From Conexibacter arvalis (lineage in GTDB: Bacteria; Actinomycetota; Thermoleophilia; Solirubrobacterales; Solirubrobacteraceae): a stretch of DNA of 64,000 nucleotides. The notes beneath the pieces were generated by a model. It saw only the letters and a list, made by a program, of their open reading frames with translations. It searched no databases and was not told where the DNA came from. Position numbers and translations under genes: made by a program. Where the stretch lies: contig NZ_JACHNU010000006.1 in assembly GCF_014199525.1 (NCBI RefSeq), positions 248,001-312,000 on the forward strand. The letters run 5' to 3'. How positions within the stretch are numbered: the stretch's first letter is position 1; the number at the start of each line of letters is the position of its first letter. Positions 3,340 to 9,055 of this stretch are shown here, piece by piece.

Positions 3340-3900
3340 ATGCGAGGCGGGGTCGTTGCGAGAGTCACGTTGGCGACGGTCGTGCTCGCCCCCGAACCGC
3401 TCACGCGTTACGCCGTCGCCAAGGCGGTCGAGCAGCGCTACGGCGGCGACGACGGGATACTCCGGACCAAGCGCCAGCACGCCTACGACCTGGTCCCGGC
3501 GCTCGAGGCCAACGGACTGATCCGTGTCGTCGGAACGGCGCCGACGCGCACCAGCAGAGAGCCGACGAGCCTGTTCGGCGCCACCCAGGCCGGCGTCCAC
3601 GACTGGCGCGCGTGGCTGTCGAGCCCGATCGCGATGCCGGACGCGATGACCGGCGCGCTCGCCCGGCTCTACGCGGTGCGGCAGGGCGACTTCGCAACGA
3701 TGCTCGGGATCATCGACCGCTACGAGGCGATGCTGCGGCTGATGGTCCAGCGCGCCGAGGACCCCGTCGCGCCGGACCACATCGTCGAGCGGATCAGATC
3801 GGTGTGGAGCAGACGCGAGCTGGTCGCGCAGCTGCAGTGGTGCCAGCACTCGCGCGAGATCGTCACCGACGCGATGGCGGGAACCTCGCCGTGGCGGTGA
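3340..3900 (+). CDS. PadR-like winged-helix transcriptional regulator
   Basis: This 186-residue protein has a PadR-type layout: an N-terminal winged helix (TLATVVLAPEPLTRYAVAKAVEQRY), a YDLVPALEANGLI segment like the PadR recognition region, a wing ending in SLFGATQAGVHDWRAWL, then a C-terminal helical dimerisation part. Such regulators usually repress adjacent drug-exporter genes. ATG 3340 is preferred because GGGGAG lies just upstream. Its stop overlaps the GTG start of the following ABC ATPase, so it is probably co-transcribed with and regulates the exporter. Confidence 0.75.
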   Translation: MRGGVVARVTLATVVLAPEPLTRYAVAKAVEQRYGGDDGILRTKRQHAYDLVPALEANGLIRVVGTAPTRTSREPTSLFGATQAGVHDWRAWLSSPIAMPDAMTGALARLYAVRQGDFATMLGIIDRYEAMLRLMVQRAEDPVAPDHIVERIRSVWSRRELVAQLQWCQHSREIVTDAMAGTSPWR

Positions 3901-4613
3901 CGCTGCTCACGCTCGCGGGCGTGTCGGTGCGGTTCCGGAGCGCGACCGCGCTCGCCGACGTCTCGCTCGAGGTCGCGGCCGGCGAGCTGGTGATCGTCTG
4001 GGGCCCGGCGCGGTCCGGGCGCACGACGCTGCTGGAGGTCGCCTCGGGCGTGCGGCCGCCCGACGTCGGCACGGTCACGTTCGCCGGCCGGGCGCCGGGC
4101 GCCAGCCTCGGCCGGCAGGGCGGCTTCGCGCTCGTGACCGGCAGCAGCCGCGCGCTGCTGGGCCATGACGATCTCGTGATCGACCAGGTCGCCTATCCGG
4201 CGATCCGCACGATGTCCCGGTGGCGCGCGCAGGCGGCCGCCGACGGCGTGCTGCGACGGTGCGGCGTCGAGGAGCTGGCCCAGGAGCCGATCGACGCGCT
4301 CTCGGCCGCCGAGCGGATCCGCGTGCTGCTCGCCCGCAGCCTCGTGCGCGAGCCAAGGCTGGTGCTGCTCGACGAGCCGACCACCGGCCTCTCCCACCCC
4401 GAGAGCGAGCGCTTCCTGGAGCTGGTCCGCTCGCTCGTCCGCGACGACGGGCTCGCGGTGCTGATGACCGACGACGCCGAGGGCGCGGCGCTCGTCCCCG
4501 GCGCCCGCGTGCTGACGATGCAGCGTGGCACCGTGCGCGGCGCCGGGCCGTCCGTCCCGGCCGACGTCATCCCGCTCGACGGGCGACGCGCGGGGCCGGG
4601 GCGCGGGCTGTGA
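3891..4613 (+). CDS. Degenerate ABC transporter ATP-binding protein
   Basis: This 240-residue ABC nucleotide-binding protein has a Walker B (LVLLDEP, residues 157-163) and D-loop, but its Walker A at 38-45 reads GPARSGRT: the essential lysine is Arg44. The signature is LSAAE (137-141) instead of LSGGQ, and the switch histidine is replaced (MTDD, 192-195). One catalytic site of a heterodimer is therefore likely impaired, as in asymmetric ABC exporters. GTG 3891 overlaps the regulator end (a second GTG at 3897 is possible), and its stop overlaps the GTG of the next ATPase. It probably pairs with that canonical ATPase on the large permease downstream. Confidence 0.8.
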   Translation: MAVTLLTLAGVSVRFRSATALADVSLEVAAGELVIVWGPARSGRTTLLEVASGVRPPDVGTVTFAGRAPGASLGRQGGFALVTGSSRALLGHDDLVIDQVAYPAIRTMSRWRAQAAADGVLRRCGVEELAQEPIDALSAAERIRVLLARSLVREPRLVLLDEPTTGLSHPESERFLELVRSLVRDDGLAVLMTDDAEGAALVPGARVLTMQRGTVRGAGPSVPADVIPLDGRRAGPGRGL

Positions 4614-5311
4614 CGCTCAGGCTCGACCGCGTCTCGCGCCACTTCGACGTCGGCGGCGAGACCGTGCGCGCCGTCGACGGCGTCTCGCTGACGATCGAGC
4701 GCGGCGAGCTGATCGCCCTCTACGGCCCCAGCGGCTCCGGCAAGTCGACGCTGCTGCTGCTCGCCGCCGGCCTCGACCGCCCCGACAGCGGATCGGTGAG
4801 CTGGGACGGCGTCCCGGTCCCGCTGGGCGGACGGGCCGCCGACCGCTGGCGGCGCGACACGCTCGGCGTCCTCCTGCAGCAGCCGCAGCTCGTCGAGGGC
4901 GTGCCGCTCCATCGCAGCGCCGGCCTGCGCCTGGAGGCGCGCGGCATGCGCCGCTCGCAGGCCCGCCTCGCCGGCATCCGCGCGCTGAGAGAGGTCGGCC
5001 TCGGTCACCGGCTGGAGCATCGGCCCGATCAGCTCTCGATCGGGCAGCGCCAGCGTGCGGCGATCGCGAGAGCGCTCACGACCGACCCGGCGCTGATCCT
5101 CGCCGACGAGCCGACCGGCAGCCTCGACTCCCAGACCAGCGCGCAGATCGTCGACCTGCTCGACGCGCTCGCGCACGAGCGGGGGCGAGCGGTGCTGATC
5201 GTCACGCACGACCCGCAACTCGCGCACCGTGCCGACCGCGTGCTCCGCCTCGCCGACGGACGTCTGAGCGAGCCGGTGCACGACCCCGCCGACCTCTCGC
5301 CGCAGCCGTGA
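4610..5311 (+). CDS. ABC transporter ATP-binding protein, MacB/LolD type
   Basis: This 233-residue ATPase is canonical: Walker A GPSGSGKS (39-46), signature LSIGQRQRAAIARAL (from 142), Walker B ALILADEP (161-168), D-loop SLDSQTS and switch VTHD. The LADEPTGSLD block is typical of the LolD/MacB/FtsE group that drives FtsX-like permeases by mechanotransmission rather than classical transport. GTG 4610 overlaps the preceding stop and its own stop overlaps the permease GTG at 5308, so translation is tightly coupled. Confidence 0.88.
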   Translation: MTLRLDRVSRHFDVGGETVRAVDGVSLTIERGELIALYGPSGSGKSTLLLLAAGLDRPDSGSVSWDGVPVPLGGRAADRWRRDTLGVLLQQPQLVEGVPLHRSAGLRLEARGMRRSQARLAGIRALREVGLGHRLEHRPDQLSIGQRQRAAIARALTTDPALILADEPTGSLDSQTSAQIVDLLDALAHERGRAVLIVTHDPQLAHRADRVLRLADGRLSEPVHDPADLSPQP

Positions 5312-7905
5312 CGGGCGCGACCGCGCCGCCGACCGAGCCCGACCGCACCCGCGAGACGGCCCAGTGGGTGCGGATCGGCACGCTGCTGACGCTCTACGCC
5401 GGCCGCCTGCGACGCCAATGGCTGCAGGAGCTGCTCGCGGCCGCCGGCATCGCGACCGGCGTGATGCTCGTCTTCGCGGTGCTCGCCGCCAACACGAGCA
5501 TCAAGTCCTCGGCGCGCGAGATCGCGACCGCGATATCGGGACGGGCCGAGCTGCAGCTCGGCGCGCTCGGAGGCGGCGGCTTCGACGCGCGGCTGGTCGA
5601 GGAGGTCCGGGCCGCGCCGGGCGTCGAGACCGCCTCCGCCCTGCTCCAGACCCGCGCCAACCTGCGCCACCGCGACGACCGGGTCGGCGTCGACCTGGTC
5701 GGCGTCGACGGCTCCTACGCGCAGCTCGGCGGCGTCAGCGCCCGTCCGGCGCTGTTCGGGATCTTCTCGCTGCCGGGCATCTACCTGACCGCCGGCGCGG
5801 GAGACGCCCTCGGCTTGCCGCCCGGAAGCGCGCCGTCGGCGCCGGTCGCGATCGACGTCCGCGGACGCAACCGCGAGATCCCGGTGATCGGCGTGCTCGG
5901 CTCCCACGAGGTCGGACCCGTCGCCCCCGCGACGATCGCCTCGACGTCGCTCGAACGCGCGCAGGAGCTGAGCGGCATGCGCGGCAGAGCGACGCGGATC
6001 CTCGCCGTCGTCAGAGACGGCGAGGCGGAGGCCGCACGCACCTCGCTCGAACGGATCGCACGTGACAACGGCCTGCGGACGAGCACGGTCGACGACGAGC
6101 TGCGCGCGCTCTCGATCGCGACCGCGCCCAACGATCAGTCGACGATGCTGTTCGCGGCGATCGCCGCGATCGTCGGCCTGCTGCTGACCGCGATGGCGAT
6201 GCTGCTCACCGTGCCGGAGCGCCGGCGCGAGCTGGCGCGGATGCGGATCGTCGGGGGCTTCACCTCACGCCAGGCGACCCAGGTGCTGCTCTCGCAGGCG
6301 ATCATGCTCGGACTGGCGTCATCGGCCGCCGGCGTGCTCGCGGGATCGCTGCTGGCACGCAGCGCGGCGCAGGCGCCGCCCGGGTACCTGACGTTCGCGT
6401 TCCCGATCGGCTCCGGCGTCGACATCGAGCCGTGGATGGTCGTCGCCGCGCTGCTCGGCGGCACGCTCTTCACGTGCATCGCCGCCGCGACGCCGCTGGC
6501 CGACCTGCGCTCCGGCCGGGCGCTGAACGCGATCTACGGCACGGGCGGCCAGCCCGGACAGGGCATCTCGCCCCGGCTGCGATGGCAGCTCGCCGCGGTC
6601 GCCGTCGCGCTCGTCGCCGCGGCGTCGGTCGTCGTGGCGGTGTGGCCGGGCACGACGCTGCTGACGATCGGGATCCTGATCGTCGCGACGCTGCTGGCGA
6701 TGCCCGCGGTCCTCGCCGGCGTCGTCGCCGCGGCGACACGGCTCGAGCGGCTCGACCGCGCCCCGCCGCTCGTGATTCCCGTCGCCGCGCTGCGCTCGGC
6801 TCCGGTTCGCTCGGTCGCGCTCGCGGCGACCTGCGCGGTCGCGATCTGCGGCGCGCTCGCGATCGGCGGCGCACGCACCGACCTGTTCGACGGGATCGAA
6901 CAGGATCAGCGCGAGCACTACGGCACGACGGACATCTGGATCAGTCAACGCGGCGACGCGCTCGGTCTCCAGCCGTTCCGTGCGCCAGAGGGGCTCGCCG
7001 CCCTTCCCGGCGTGGCAGCCGTGCGCGAGTACATGGGCGGGCTGCTCGACATCGGCGACCGGCGCATGTGGGTGATCGGACGGCCGAGCGCGGACCGGAC
7101 GATGGTCCCGCCTTCCCAGATCCGCGACGGCAACTACGCGACGACCACCGCGCGGCTGCGCGCCGGCGGCTGGATCACCGTCTCCGATCAGCTCGCGCGC
7201 GAGCGAGGCATCGCGCCCGGCTCGAAGATCGAGCTGCCCACGCCGACCGGGCCCCGCACGTTCCGCGTCGCCGCGATCACGACCAACCTTGGCTGGGGGC
7301 CGGGCGCGATCGTCATGCGCGCCGAGGACTACCGCGAGGGGTGGTCGACCACCACGCCGACCGCGCTCGAGGTCGACGTCGCGCCCGGCGCCTCCCCGAC
7401 GCGCGTGCGCGACGCGATCCGCGCCGCGCTCGGTCCGGGAACGGGCCTCCAGGTCCAGACGACCGCCGAGAACGTCGCCGACGCCCGCGAGATCGTCAGC
7501 GACGGTCTCGCGCGCCTGCGCCAGATCGAGACGCTGCTGCTGATCGCCGCCGCCGTCGCGATCGCCGTCGCGATGATCGCCACCATCCGCGAGCGCCGCC
7601 CCCAGCTCGCCGCGTACGCGATCGAGGGCTGGAGCCGCTTCGCGCTCTGGCGCGCGCTGATGGGCGAGACGGCGATGATCCTGCTCGCCGGCTGCCTCGC
7701 CGGGATCGCCGCCGGCACCTACGGCCATTACCTCGGCGGACGCTGGCTCGAACAGACGACCTCGTTCCCCGCCCCCTGGACGTGGTCGCCGCTCGCGGCG
7801 CTGCCGGCCTGCGGCCTGCTCGCGGGCGTCGCGCTCCTCGTCACCGCCGTCCCCGGCTATCTCGCCGCGCATCCGCGCGGCCGCCTCGCCGTCGACCGCG
7901 CCTGA
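5308..7905 (+). CDS. FtsX/MacB-like ABC transporter permease
   Basis: This 865-residue membrane protein has the two-repeat layout of large FtsX-like permeases: an N-terminal membrane segment (LLAAAGIATGVMLVFAVLA), a large extracytoplasmic domain (about residues 60-265), three membrane helices (AAIAAIVGLLLTAMAMLL onward), a central hydrophobic pair, a second extracytoplasmic domain (about 530-740) and three final helices. Such permeases handle lipoproteins, peptides, antibiotics or cell-envelope signals; the substrate here is unknown. It ends the four-gene PadR-ABC operon. Confidence 0.85.
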   Translation: MTGATAPPTEPDRTRETAQWVRIGTLLTLYAGRLRRQWLQELLAAAGIATGVMLVFAVLAANTSIKSSAREIATAISGRAELQLGALGGGGFDARLVEEVRAAPGVETASALLQTRANLRHRDDRVGVDLVGVDGSYAQLGGVSARPALFGIFSLPGIYLTAGAGDALGLPPGSAPSAPVAIDVRGRNREIPVIGVLGSHEVGPVAPATIASTSLERAQELSGMRGRATRILAVVRDGEAEAARTSLERIARDNGLRTSTVDDELRALSIATAPNDQSTMLFAAIAAIVGLLLTAMAMLLTVPERRRELARMRIVGGFTSRQATQVLLSQAIMLGLASSAAGVLAGSLLARSAAQAPPGYLTFAFPIGSGVDIEPWMVVAALLGGTLFTCIAAATPLADLRSGRALNAIYGTGGQPGQGISPRLRWQLAAVAVALVAAASVVVAVWPGTTLLTIGILIVATLLAMPAVLAGVVAAATRLERLDRAPPLVIPVAALRSAPVRSVALAATCAVAICGALAIGGARTDLFDGIEQDQREHYGTTDIWISQRGDALGLQPFRAPEGLAALPGVAAVREYMGGLLDIGDRRMWVIGRPSADRTMVPPSQIRDGNYATTTARLRAGGWITVSDQLARERGIAPGSKIELPTPTGPRTFRVAAITTNLGWGPGAIVMRAEDYREGWSTTTPTALEVDVAPGASPTRVRDAIRAALGPGTGLQVQTTAENVADAREIVSDGLARLRQIETLLLIAAAVAIAVAMIATIRERRPQLAAYAIEGWSRFALWRALMGETAMILLAGCLAGIAAGTYGHYLGGRWLEQTTSFPAPWTWSPLAALPACGLLAGVALLVTAVPGYLAAHPRGRLAVDRA

Positions 7906-7975: not shown

Positions 7976-9055
7976 ATGGCCGGCATGCTCGCCATGCTCA
8001 GGACCCTCCGGACGCTCGCGCTGTACGAGGGGTCGATCGTCCCGCAGGCACGTGCGGAGATCCGACGCTGGTCGACCGTCGCGGAGACGATCCCGGACCC
8101 GGTGCTGCGCGCGCATGCGACCGCCGCGATCGCGGCCGACACCGACAACGCCGAGGCCGTCACCGCCTTCGCCGCGTTCGCTTCCCGATCGCGTCGGCGC
8201 ACGACGATCGAGCTGCTGGTCGCCCACCAGCTCCTCGCCGACTACGTCGACGTGCTGGGCGAACGGGTCTGCTGCGATCGGCTCGCCGACGGGCTCCGGA
8301 TCGGCAGTGCCCTGCCGGCGGCCGTCGCCCGGCCTGGGGATCCGCTCGACCTCGATCCGCTCGGCGACGACGGCGGCTACCTCGCGGCGCTGGTCTCGGC
8401 CTGCCGCGATCGGCTCTGGCGGCTGCCCGCTGCAGCGACGGTCGCAGGACGAGCCCAAGCGGCCGCGGTCCGCTGGGGAGAGGGGCTCGCGCACAGCCAC
8501 ACCGCCGCGCACGGCGAGGCGCTCGCGCAGGTCGAAGCGTGGAGCGCCGAGCAGGACGGCTGCGCGGGCTATGCGTGGTGGGAGATCGCCGCCGGCTCCA
8601 ACTCCAACCTCGCGATCGCGGCGCTGCTCGCGGCGGCGGCCGACCCGGCGACGACCGCCCGCGACGCCGCGCGGATCGAAGCCGCGTACTGGCCGCACGT
8701 CTGCGCGATGTCGACGCTGCTCGACAGCCTCGTCGACTGCGAGCGCGACGCGGTCAGCGGCGACTTCTCGTTCGTCTCCCACTACGCCGGCGCCGACGCG
8801 GCTCGAGCCGGCATCGTCGCGGCGGCGAGTCGCTCGCTAGGCGCCGTCAGCACGCTGCGGCACAGCCACACGCACGCGATGATCGTCTGCGGCGTCGCCG
8901 CCTACTACGCCGCTGCCGCCGAGCGCGGCAGCCTCGCCGCGCAGGTCGCGCCGAGCGTCGTCGAGGCGCTGCGGCCGGCGGTGACGCCGATCGCCGCGGC
9001 GCTGCGGGCGCAGCGCCGCCTCGCCGGCCGTTCGTCGCCCGCCGCGCGCGCTTGA
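7976..9055 (+). CDS. DUF2600 family protein (YtpB-like terpene cyclase relative)
   Basis: This 359-residue protein carries the DUF2600 hallmarks: an N-terminal helical block with paired acidic residues (AIAADTDNAEAV), a central YAWWEIAAGSNSNLAIAALLAAA segment, then LLDSLVDCERDAVSGDFSFVSHY, matching the family's conserved LxDxxxDxxxDxxxGxxSxVxxY region. The characterised relative YtpB of Bacillus is a tetraprenyl-beta-curcumene synthase, so a role in isoprenoid metabolism is possible, but many actinobacterial members are uncharacterised. It starts 70 bp after the permease gene; ATG 7976 or 7985 could be the start. Whether it is co-transcribed with the exporter is unclear. Confidence 0.75.
   Translation: MAGMLAMLRTLRTLALYEGSIVPQARAEIRRWSTVAETIPDPVLRAHATAAIAADTDNAEAVTAFAAFASRSRRRTTIELLVAHQLLADYVDVLGERVCCDRLADGLRIGSALPAAVARPGDPLDLDPLGDDGGYLAALVSACRDRLWRLPAAATVAGRAQAAAVRWGEGLAHSHTAAHGEALAQVEAWSAEQDGCAGYAWWEIAAGSNSNLAIAALLAAAADPATTARDAARIEAAYWPHVCAMSTLLDSLVDCERDAVSGDFSFVSHYAGADAARAGIVAAASRSLGAVSTLRHSHTHAMIVCGVAAYYAAAAERGSLAAQVAPSVVEALRPAVTPIAAALRAQRRLAGRSSPAARA

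Follow-up and report, generated by a model that had tools for sequence, protein, structure and literature searches.

Background

Machines of the type VII ATP-binding cassette (ABC) class have been modelled with two equal ATPases. In YbbAP-TesA, the closest described relative of the system considered here, a single permease, built from a duplicated FtsX half and bearing a pair of MacB-like extracytoplasmic domains, is combined with two copies of one LolD-like ATPase and a hydrolase; its coupling helices lie between transmembrane helices 2 and 3 and 8 and 9 (TM2-3 and TM8-9), and the available part of its description has hydrophobic compounds extracted from the inner membrane for the hydrolase partner (PMC12646458). 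The type VII models of Bacillus subtilis, in the portion of the source at hand, likewise all contain two copies of one ATPase (PMC11466899). Here we describe a gene unit in a 64,000-nucleotide stretch of the Conexibacter arvalis genome (contig NZ_JACHNU010000006.1, positions 248,001 to 312,000; hereafter 'the window'), in which a permease of similar architecture is encoded with two unlike ATPases, one of them degenerate in its motifs, and with a terpene synthase family gene, so that here too the putative enzyme partner would act on hydrophobic compounds.

The same set of unequal ATPases recurs with the permease across a clade of related systems, and the terpene synthase family gene is closely linked to it. 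Our preferred reading, to which we give slightly less than an even chance, is that the five genes act as one unit: an asymmetric type VII ABC machine that handles a large terpene made by its own synthase and whose ATPases are most likely heterodimeric.

Results

The unit comprises the following genes:

3340-3900, forward strand: PadR-type transcription regulator (start ATG at 3340; 4-bp overlap with the ATPase 1 gene; assigned by family alignment)
3897-4613, forward strand: degenerate ATPase (ATPase 1), 238 amino acids (motif reading, Pfam and tree)
4610-5311, forward strand: canonical LolD/MacB-like ATPase (ATPase 2), 233 amino acids (all motifs intact)
5308-7905, forward strand: permease with double FtsX and double MacB_PCD domains, 865 amino acids (Pfam; YbbP-like predicted fold)
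7976-9055, forward strand: DUF2600 (PF10776) protein, class IB terpene synthase family (70 bp downstream of the permease gene; Pfam)

Successive 4-bp overlaps of the GTGA type join the regulator, the two ATPases and the permease; the DUF2600 gene, which comes next, had been overlooked in an earlier note on this DNA. That note had reported a Walker A arginine, an LSAAE signature and a missing switch histidine in the first ATPase, an intact second ATPase, and one double-FtsX permease encoded alongside with a PadR-type regulator, and our reading of the genes and motifs agrees with it on these points. ATPase 1 has GPARSGRTT at Walker A (Lys to Arg) and LSAAE as its signature, retains the Walker B sequence DEPT with its catalytic Glu, reads LMTDDE at the position of the H-loop His, and has also lost the Q-loop Gln, which the note had not recorded. 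The motifs of ATPase 2 (GPSGSGKST, LSIGQ, DEPT and THD) are canonical. Against the Pfam ABC_tran model, ATPases 1 and 2 score 62.3 and 101.7 bits, respectively. The best match of ATPase 2 is LolD, at 173.7 bits, under the equivalog cut-off of 307.75, and its sequence would place it with the LolD/MacB-type ATPases of the type VII class; ATPase 1 shows no particular likeness to LolD (80.6 bits, with other families scoring higher).

An ABC site takes its Walker A and B motifs and its Q- and H-loops from one domain and its signature from the other, according to the accessible part of PMC7756269. The 'dead site' proposed in the earlier note consequently needs to be recast: because every deviation lies in one protein, a heterodimer would be expected to have hybrid sites at both positions in place of a dead site and an intact one, an argument that applies only if the two ATPases do form a heterodimer. 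A division of the deviating motifs between the domains that leaves one site canonical was not found, the losses at the Walker A Lys, signature, Walker B and H-loop all falling in the upstream protein in the 86 systems described below.

The permease matches PF02687 (FtsX, 60.6 bits) and PF12704 (MacB_PCD, 43.2 bits) over two stretches each. Its AlphaFold2 model (predicted local distance difference test, pLDDT, 91.8; predicted template modelling score, pTM, 0.88) finds its best solved structural match in YbbP (Foldseek template modelling scores 0.61/0.65; Z scores 23.1 and 25.0), at 14% identity over the Foldseek alignment; the best BceB entry falls in the same range (Z 23.7), with MacB and LolE next. 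By sequence, the only matches among solved chains are MacB, LolE, LolC and LolF. These domains and the modelled fold would make the permease a type VII ABC protein. Coupling helices are predicted in it at about residues 302-314 and 764-772, at places like those of TM2-3 and TM8-9 in YbbP, their coupling role being likewise a prediction. The window's regulator gives no PF03551 match by itself; of 16 aligned family members, however, 13 match, and on this ground it would belong to the PadR family.

The 5.2-Mb window genome contains 31 FtsX stretches, and 11 loci, the window's included, have the order degenerate ATPase, canonical ATPase, permease. Within the order Solirubrobacterales, the permease clade is present in 32 of 232 genomes and six of 54 genera (expect values, E, up to 1e-100); in samples of the class (120 genomes) and phylum (197 genomes), only genus f4 (G122 and G125), besides the window genome, exceeded 293 bits. 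Relatives were found in Conexibacter, in Solirubrobacterales, in metagenome-assembled genomes (MAGs) of Actinomycetota and on one contig labelled Sorangium. This last (L075) is a complete set on a 7-kb contig of a MAG, and may represent a binning error or a transfer.

Altogether 164 distinct permease rows were collected, of which the 117 scoring at least 600 bits against the clade profile were taken as the clade; these count one permease twice (L057 = L080), and several are cut by contig ends. A degenerate ATPase gene followed by a canonical one accompanies 86 of the 117, with the regulator found adjacent in 78. The other clade rows hold a canonical ATPase only (14), a degenerate one only (nine), none (seven) or two scored as degenerate (one), the second of that pair being scored so because its signature Ser is Ala. 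Eight of the canonical-only permeases have at least 2.2 kb of upstream sequence, with no second ATPase there. Repetition of one order in 86 systems rules out a chance neighbourhood of unrelated genes. The earlier note had looked to relatives both for conserved synteny and for absence or frameshift of the degenerate ATPase: the order is kept in the 86 rows and neither defect applies to the main architecture, but the gene is absent from the eight canonical-only loci just mentioned, and the degenerate copy of L092 looks broken.

Below the clade threshold, 38 of 47 rows have one canonical ATPase, none was found for seven, and two (L076 and L092) are truncated clade members, whose removal brings the comparison to 38 of 45; L096, with 545 bits and one canonical ATPase, is intermediate between the clade and the lower-scoring permeases. 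The view that two ATPases are unusual for the class is borne out by these counts and by described systems, which use two copies of one ATPase in the parts of the sources available (PMC11466899, PMC12646458).

Wider flanking sequence, taken for 13 exceptions and for one complete system as a control, yielded no partner of the missing kind and only a few other ABC ATPases, one of which lies directly past the regulator of L061 and falls, in the tree, outside the canonical-partner clade. Degenerate ATPases with no adjacent permease of their own occur in L041 (7618-8310), L047 (9015-9719), L049 (4162-4857), L051 (9200-9892) and L057 (10024-10722); those of L041, L047 and L051 are convergent to a complete set.

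Across the 86 systems, the downstream ATPase keeps the Walker A Lys, the signature Ser/Gly, the Walker B Asp-Glu and the H-loop His in all cases (86/86) and the Q-loop Gln in 84 of them. In the upstream ATPase, the Walker A Lys survives in 55 systems, the catalytic Glu in 50, a normal signature in 17, the Q-loop Gln in seven and the H-loop His in one. Walker A Lys to Arg, a subclade trait seen in 30 of the 86, was rejected as the key feature of the lineage, since it reflects three changes on the tree whereas loss of the His is near universal (85/86).

All 100 degenerate ATPases in the tree, including the five orphans, form one clade (support 0.999), and the 98 canonical ATPases of the permease clade form a separate one (support 0.932). 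By parsimony, the three changes from Lys to Arg compare with a mean of 30.6 in shuffles, and loss of the catalytic Glu, which appears to have arisen repeatedly, requires nine changes against 32.9. On the strength of this monophyly and these counts, the degenerate lineage most likely arose once, losing its His early and other residues later by different routes. With the closest orthologous set (L045) as reference, the ratio of nonsynonymous to synonymous substitution rates (dN/dS) is lowest for the canonical ATPase, at 0.202, followed by the permease (0.317), the degenerate ATPase (0.353) and the regulator (0.382); the degenerate ATPases are thus under purifying selection.

The DUF2600 protein scores 182.4 bits against PF10776 (cut-off 25), and its only sequence match in the PDB is 5YO8, a tetraprenyl-beta-curcumene synthase (E 1.1e-24). 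Two Asp-rich motifs characterise class IB terpene synthases of this kind, in the portion of PMC7839719 available. Among 46 aligned members, the first motif has its Asp residues in 40 and 46, with Glu instead of Asp at the last position in all 46, and the second has them in 43, 46 and 46. With PF10776 matched and both motifs essentially kept, the protein belongs to the class IB terpene synthase family; synthesis of a cyclic terpene from a long prenyl diphosphate is a putative function. Among 14 control genomes, B. subtilis gave a match to the family, whose member there goes by the name YtpB in papers.

None of the nine DUF2600 genes in the window genome lies more than 5 kb from the nearest of the 11 clade permeases. 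Across the 232 genomes of the order, 26 have both, six the permease only, four DUF2600 only and 196 neither (Fisher p 1.2e-24, a value that ignores genome relatedness); 26 of the 30 DUF2600 genomes, in other words, also carry the clade permease. Of 99 DUF2600 genes, at least 78 have a listed clade permease no more than 5 kb away (median distance 148 bp). Another 13, which lie in permease genomes and had seemed distant, were inspected, and 10 of these proved adjacent to a permease too. The four DUF2600-only genomes (L225-L228, genus g211) showed no clade permease in the stretch examined, which for L228 spans 4.1 kb only. Conversely, a DUF2600 gene is found no more than 5 kb from 77 of the 120 listed permeases. 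A strict rule (same strand, directly downstream) finds it in 23 of 43 clade systems versus none of 22 lower-scoring permeases. In a phylum sample of 396 genomes, DUF2600 was present in one, the window's own.

Pairwise distances of DUF2600 proteins and permeases are correlated (0.70 over 37 pairs, a value reached in none of 5000 permutations), and the correlation is 0.84 among the nine paralogous pairs of the window genome, where species history plays no part. In 28 of the 37 pairs the two genes share one orientation. Further conserved neighbours, such as a prenyl diphosphate synthase or a cyclase, did not emerge: no Pfam family occurred in more than two of 85 scanned, of at least 128 flanking open reading frames. 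In the canonical-only systems L142, L148, L149 and L164, DUF2600 lies upstream, at the usual place of the degenerate ATPase.

Over 83 systems, the pairwise distances of the two ATPases correlate at 0.63. With the N- and C-terminal halves of the permease, the degenerate ATPase correlates at 0.75 and 0.74 and the canonical ATPase at 0.70 and 0.63, so that the former tracks the permease halves at least as well as the latter does. Partial correlations of the canonical ATPase are 0.34 for the N half and 0.12 for the C half, a difference that is positive in 500 of 500 subsamples. The coupling helices of the two halves carry distinct clade signatures: Pro, Glu/Gln and Arg-Arg-Arg, then Asp/Glu preceding Leu-Arg, in the N half, and Trp-Gln-Arg-Arg and Leu-Lys/Arg in the C half. 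Identity between the two helices is 0.42 in the clade (n=111) and 0.60 in the outgroup (n=35), whose halves are more alike; row L205, an empty segment, was left out of this comparison.

Elsewhere in the window, an 18-base repeat array of 12.3 copies (650-870) lies within the N-terminal part of a selA frame as a Gly-Ala-Thr-rich insert, and this frame adjoins one carrying a SelB winged-helix domain (212-496). A consensus scan for promoters and terminators returned none, and is uninformative at this guanine-plus-cytosine content.

Discussion

On the reading that we prefer, a single permease would carry both ATPases, most probably paired as a heterodimer, the canonical ATPase resting on its N-terminal and the degenerate ATPase on its C-terminal half. 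ATP at the interface of the two ATPases would clamp the permease halves together. Hydrolysis would then take place at the site with canonical Walker motifs, despite the altered signature opposite, and this is the weakest step; the other site, which faces a normal signature but is without the His, may hold ATP as a clamp or stay empty. Hydrolysis by the catalytic residues of the canonical ATPase only would move the halves unequally, and this one-sided stroke might lift a large terpene, made by the synthase of the unit and lodged in the cytoplasmic membrane, out of that membrane and in the direction of the cell surface, with the PadR-type protein deciding when the set is expressed. We entertain with some doubt the most specific version of this proposal, in which the clade has fixed a heterodimer with every catalytic defect in one ATPase and neither site canonical, extracting the large terpenes of a dedicated, co-diverging class IB synthase, with nine such private pairs in the window genome.

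Several observations weigh against the proposal. The partial correlations of the degenerate ATPase (0.33 for the N half, 0.36 for the C half) do not separate the halves, the difference being 0.02 and present in 65% of subsamples, and column covariation (mutual information) between coupling helices and ATPases showed no preference among the four blocks. Whole FtsX domains of the two halves are also more diverged in the clade than in the outgroup (identity 0.29 vs 0.36), and part of the coupling-helix difference can be put down to this overall divergence. Permeases with a single ATPase largely keep both coupling-helix signatures, and the one group with a reduced score, in the N half, is the five that have no ATPase; either the partner may be supplied by another locus or the signatures may not report on the partner. 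In a fused-chain model of the two ATPases (pLDDT 82.4, pTM 0.50), both fold well but are not placed relative to each other, and twin-domain PDB chains are among the best matches only at root-mean-square deviations of about 18-27 Å. The canonical-only, degenerate-only and ATPase-less clade rows depart from a fixed pair. As to the synthase, two of the 11 systems in the window genome have no DUF2600 neighbour, six permease genomes have no DUF2600 at all, and the strict rule, which misses the window's own DUF2600, leaves 20 of its 43 clade systems without one; what points to a terpene cargo is gene linkage alone.

A homodimer of the canonical ATPase might instead drive the permease, with the degenerate pseudo-ATPase regulating it, capping it or at times replacing one subunit. 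We regard this as unlikely but well worth keeping in view, because a heterodimer with all its defects in one protein would hold no fully canonical site, unlike Pdr5 or ABCC7 as treated in the available part of PMC7756269. Canonical-only systems exist, including the eight with long upstream sequence, and the B. subtilis ytr operon, once drawn with two ATPases, is assigned in newer proposals to two separate homodimeric transporters (PMC12772383, in the part available). Separate homodimers of the two ATPases, the outcome that the earlier note had named as refuting its view, may likewise form here. The degenerate ATPase, however, tracks the permease no less closely than its canonical partner does, is part of the compact gene unit in 86 systems, and is the sole ATPase gene in nine.

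The cargo could also differ from the one that we propose. The transporter may export no terpene but handle polyprenyl diphosphates or envelope stress, with the synthase draining or supplying the same pool, an explanation that we think improbable without dismissing it. Loss of ytpB together with reduced MenA in B. subtilis leads to accumulation of heptaprenyl diphosphate, with reported sensitisation to bacitracin (PMC7038271, in the part available), and BceB and YbbP are the nearest folds of the permease. The occurrence of several co-diverging synthase-transporter pairs per genome nevertheless fits a private product better than a single common pool.

It seems still less probable that ATPase subunits are shared among the paralogous systems of a genome, so that permeases missing one gene borrow it. 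Retention of both coupling-helix signatures by degenerate-only and canonical-only permeases would agree with such sharing, as would the orphan degenerate ATPases and the flanks of the 13 exceptions, which hold no missing partner and only a few other ABC ATPases, the one beyond the L061 regulator among them; most systems, however, are complete, and their parts co-diverge. That the degenerate ATPase is a decaying duplicate is very improbable: its mean identity of 0.37 (0.52 for its partner), its motif losses and the apparently broken L092 copy would suit decay, but this is already contradicted, and a pseudogene ruled out, by a single open frame in 86 systems, by the dN/dS of 0.353 and by one clade spanning all six genera that hold the permease.

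Conclusions

Systems with an unequal ATPase pair, together with their degenerate-only and canonical-only relatives, would offer ready material for testing whether each stroke is powered by one hydrolysis event or by two, the clade offering a fixed unequal pair as a natural contrast to the equal ATPases of other type VII models. Through its tight link to class IB terpene synthases, an orphan transporter family gains a suggested cargo that can be tested, and large terpenes a possible exporter; for B. subtilis, the accessible portion of PMC11708026 gives the place where tetraprenyl curcumene is attached on spores as not known. A literature search of titles and abstract openings, with most subscription papers outside its reach, found none that describes this gene set.

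The permease shares FtsX-type helices with MacB, LolCDE, BceAB, YtrEF and FtsEX, several of which also have MacB-like domains. YtpB and BalTS resemble the window's synthase in their DUF2600 membership and Asp-rich motifs but differ in that the available parts of their descriptions mention no linked FtsX transporter (PMC7839719, PMC11708026). Loss of catalytic residues from one ATPase half also occurs in Pdr5, ABCB2/B3, ABCC7 and ABCG5/G8, the last even with Lys to Arg at Walker A; in those exporters, however, both domains carry deviations, which come together in a single composite site, whereas here one protein carries them all (PMC7756269, as far as available). The type II importers RbsA and NupO offer another parallel, pairing domains of which the second has a Walker A without Lys, but their domains are fused and the importer is of another type (PMC11466899, in the part at hand). 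Set beside these systems, the unit would be a type VII ABC machine by fold and family; what appears new is a clade in which an unequal pair of ATPases has become fixed, together with an unexpected terpene synthase partner.

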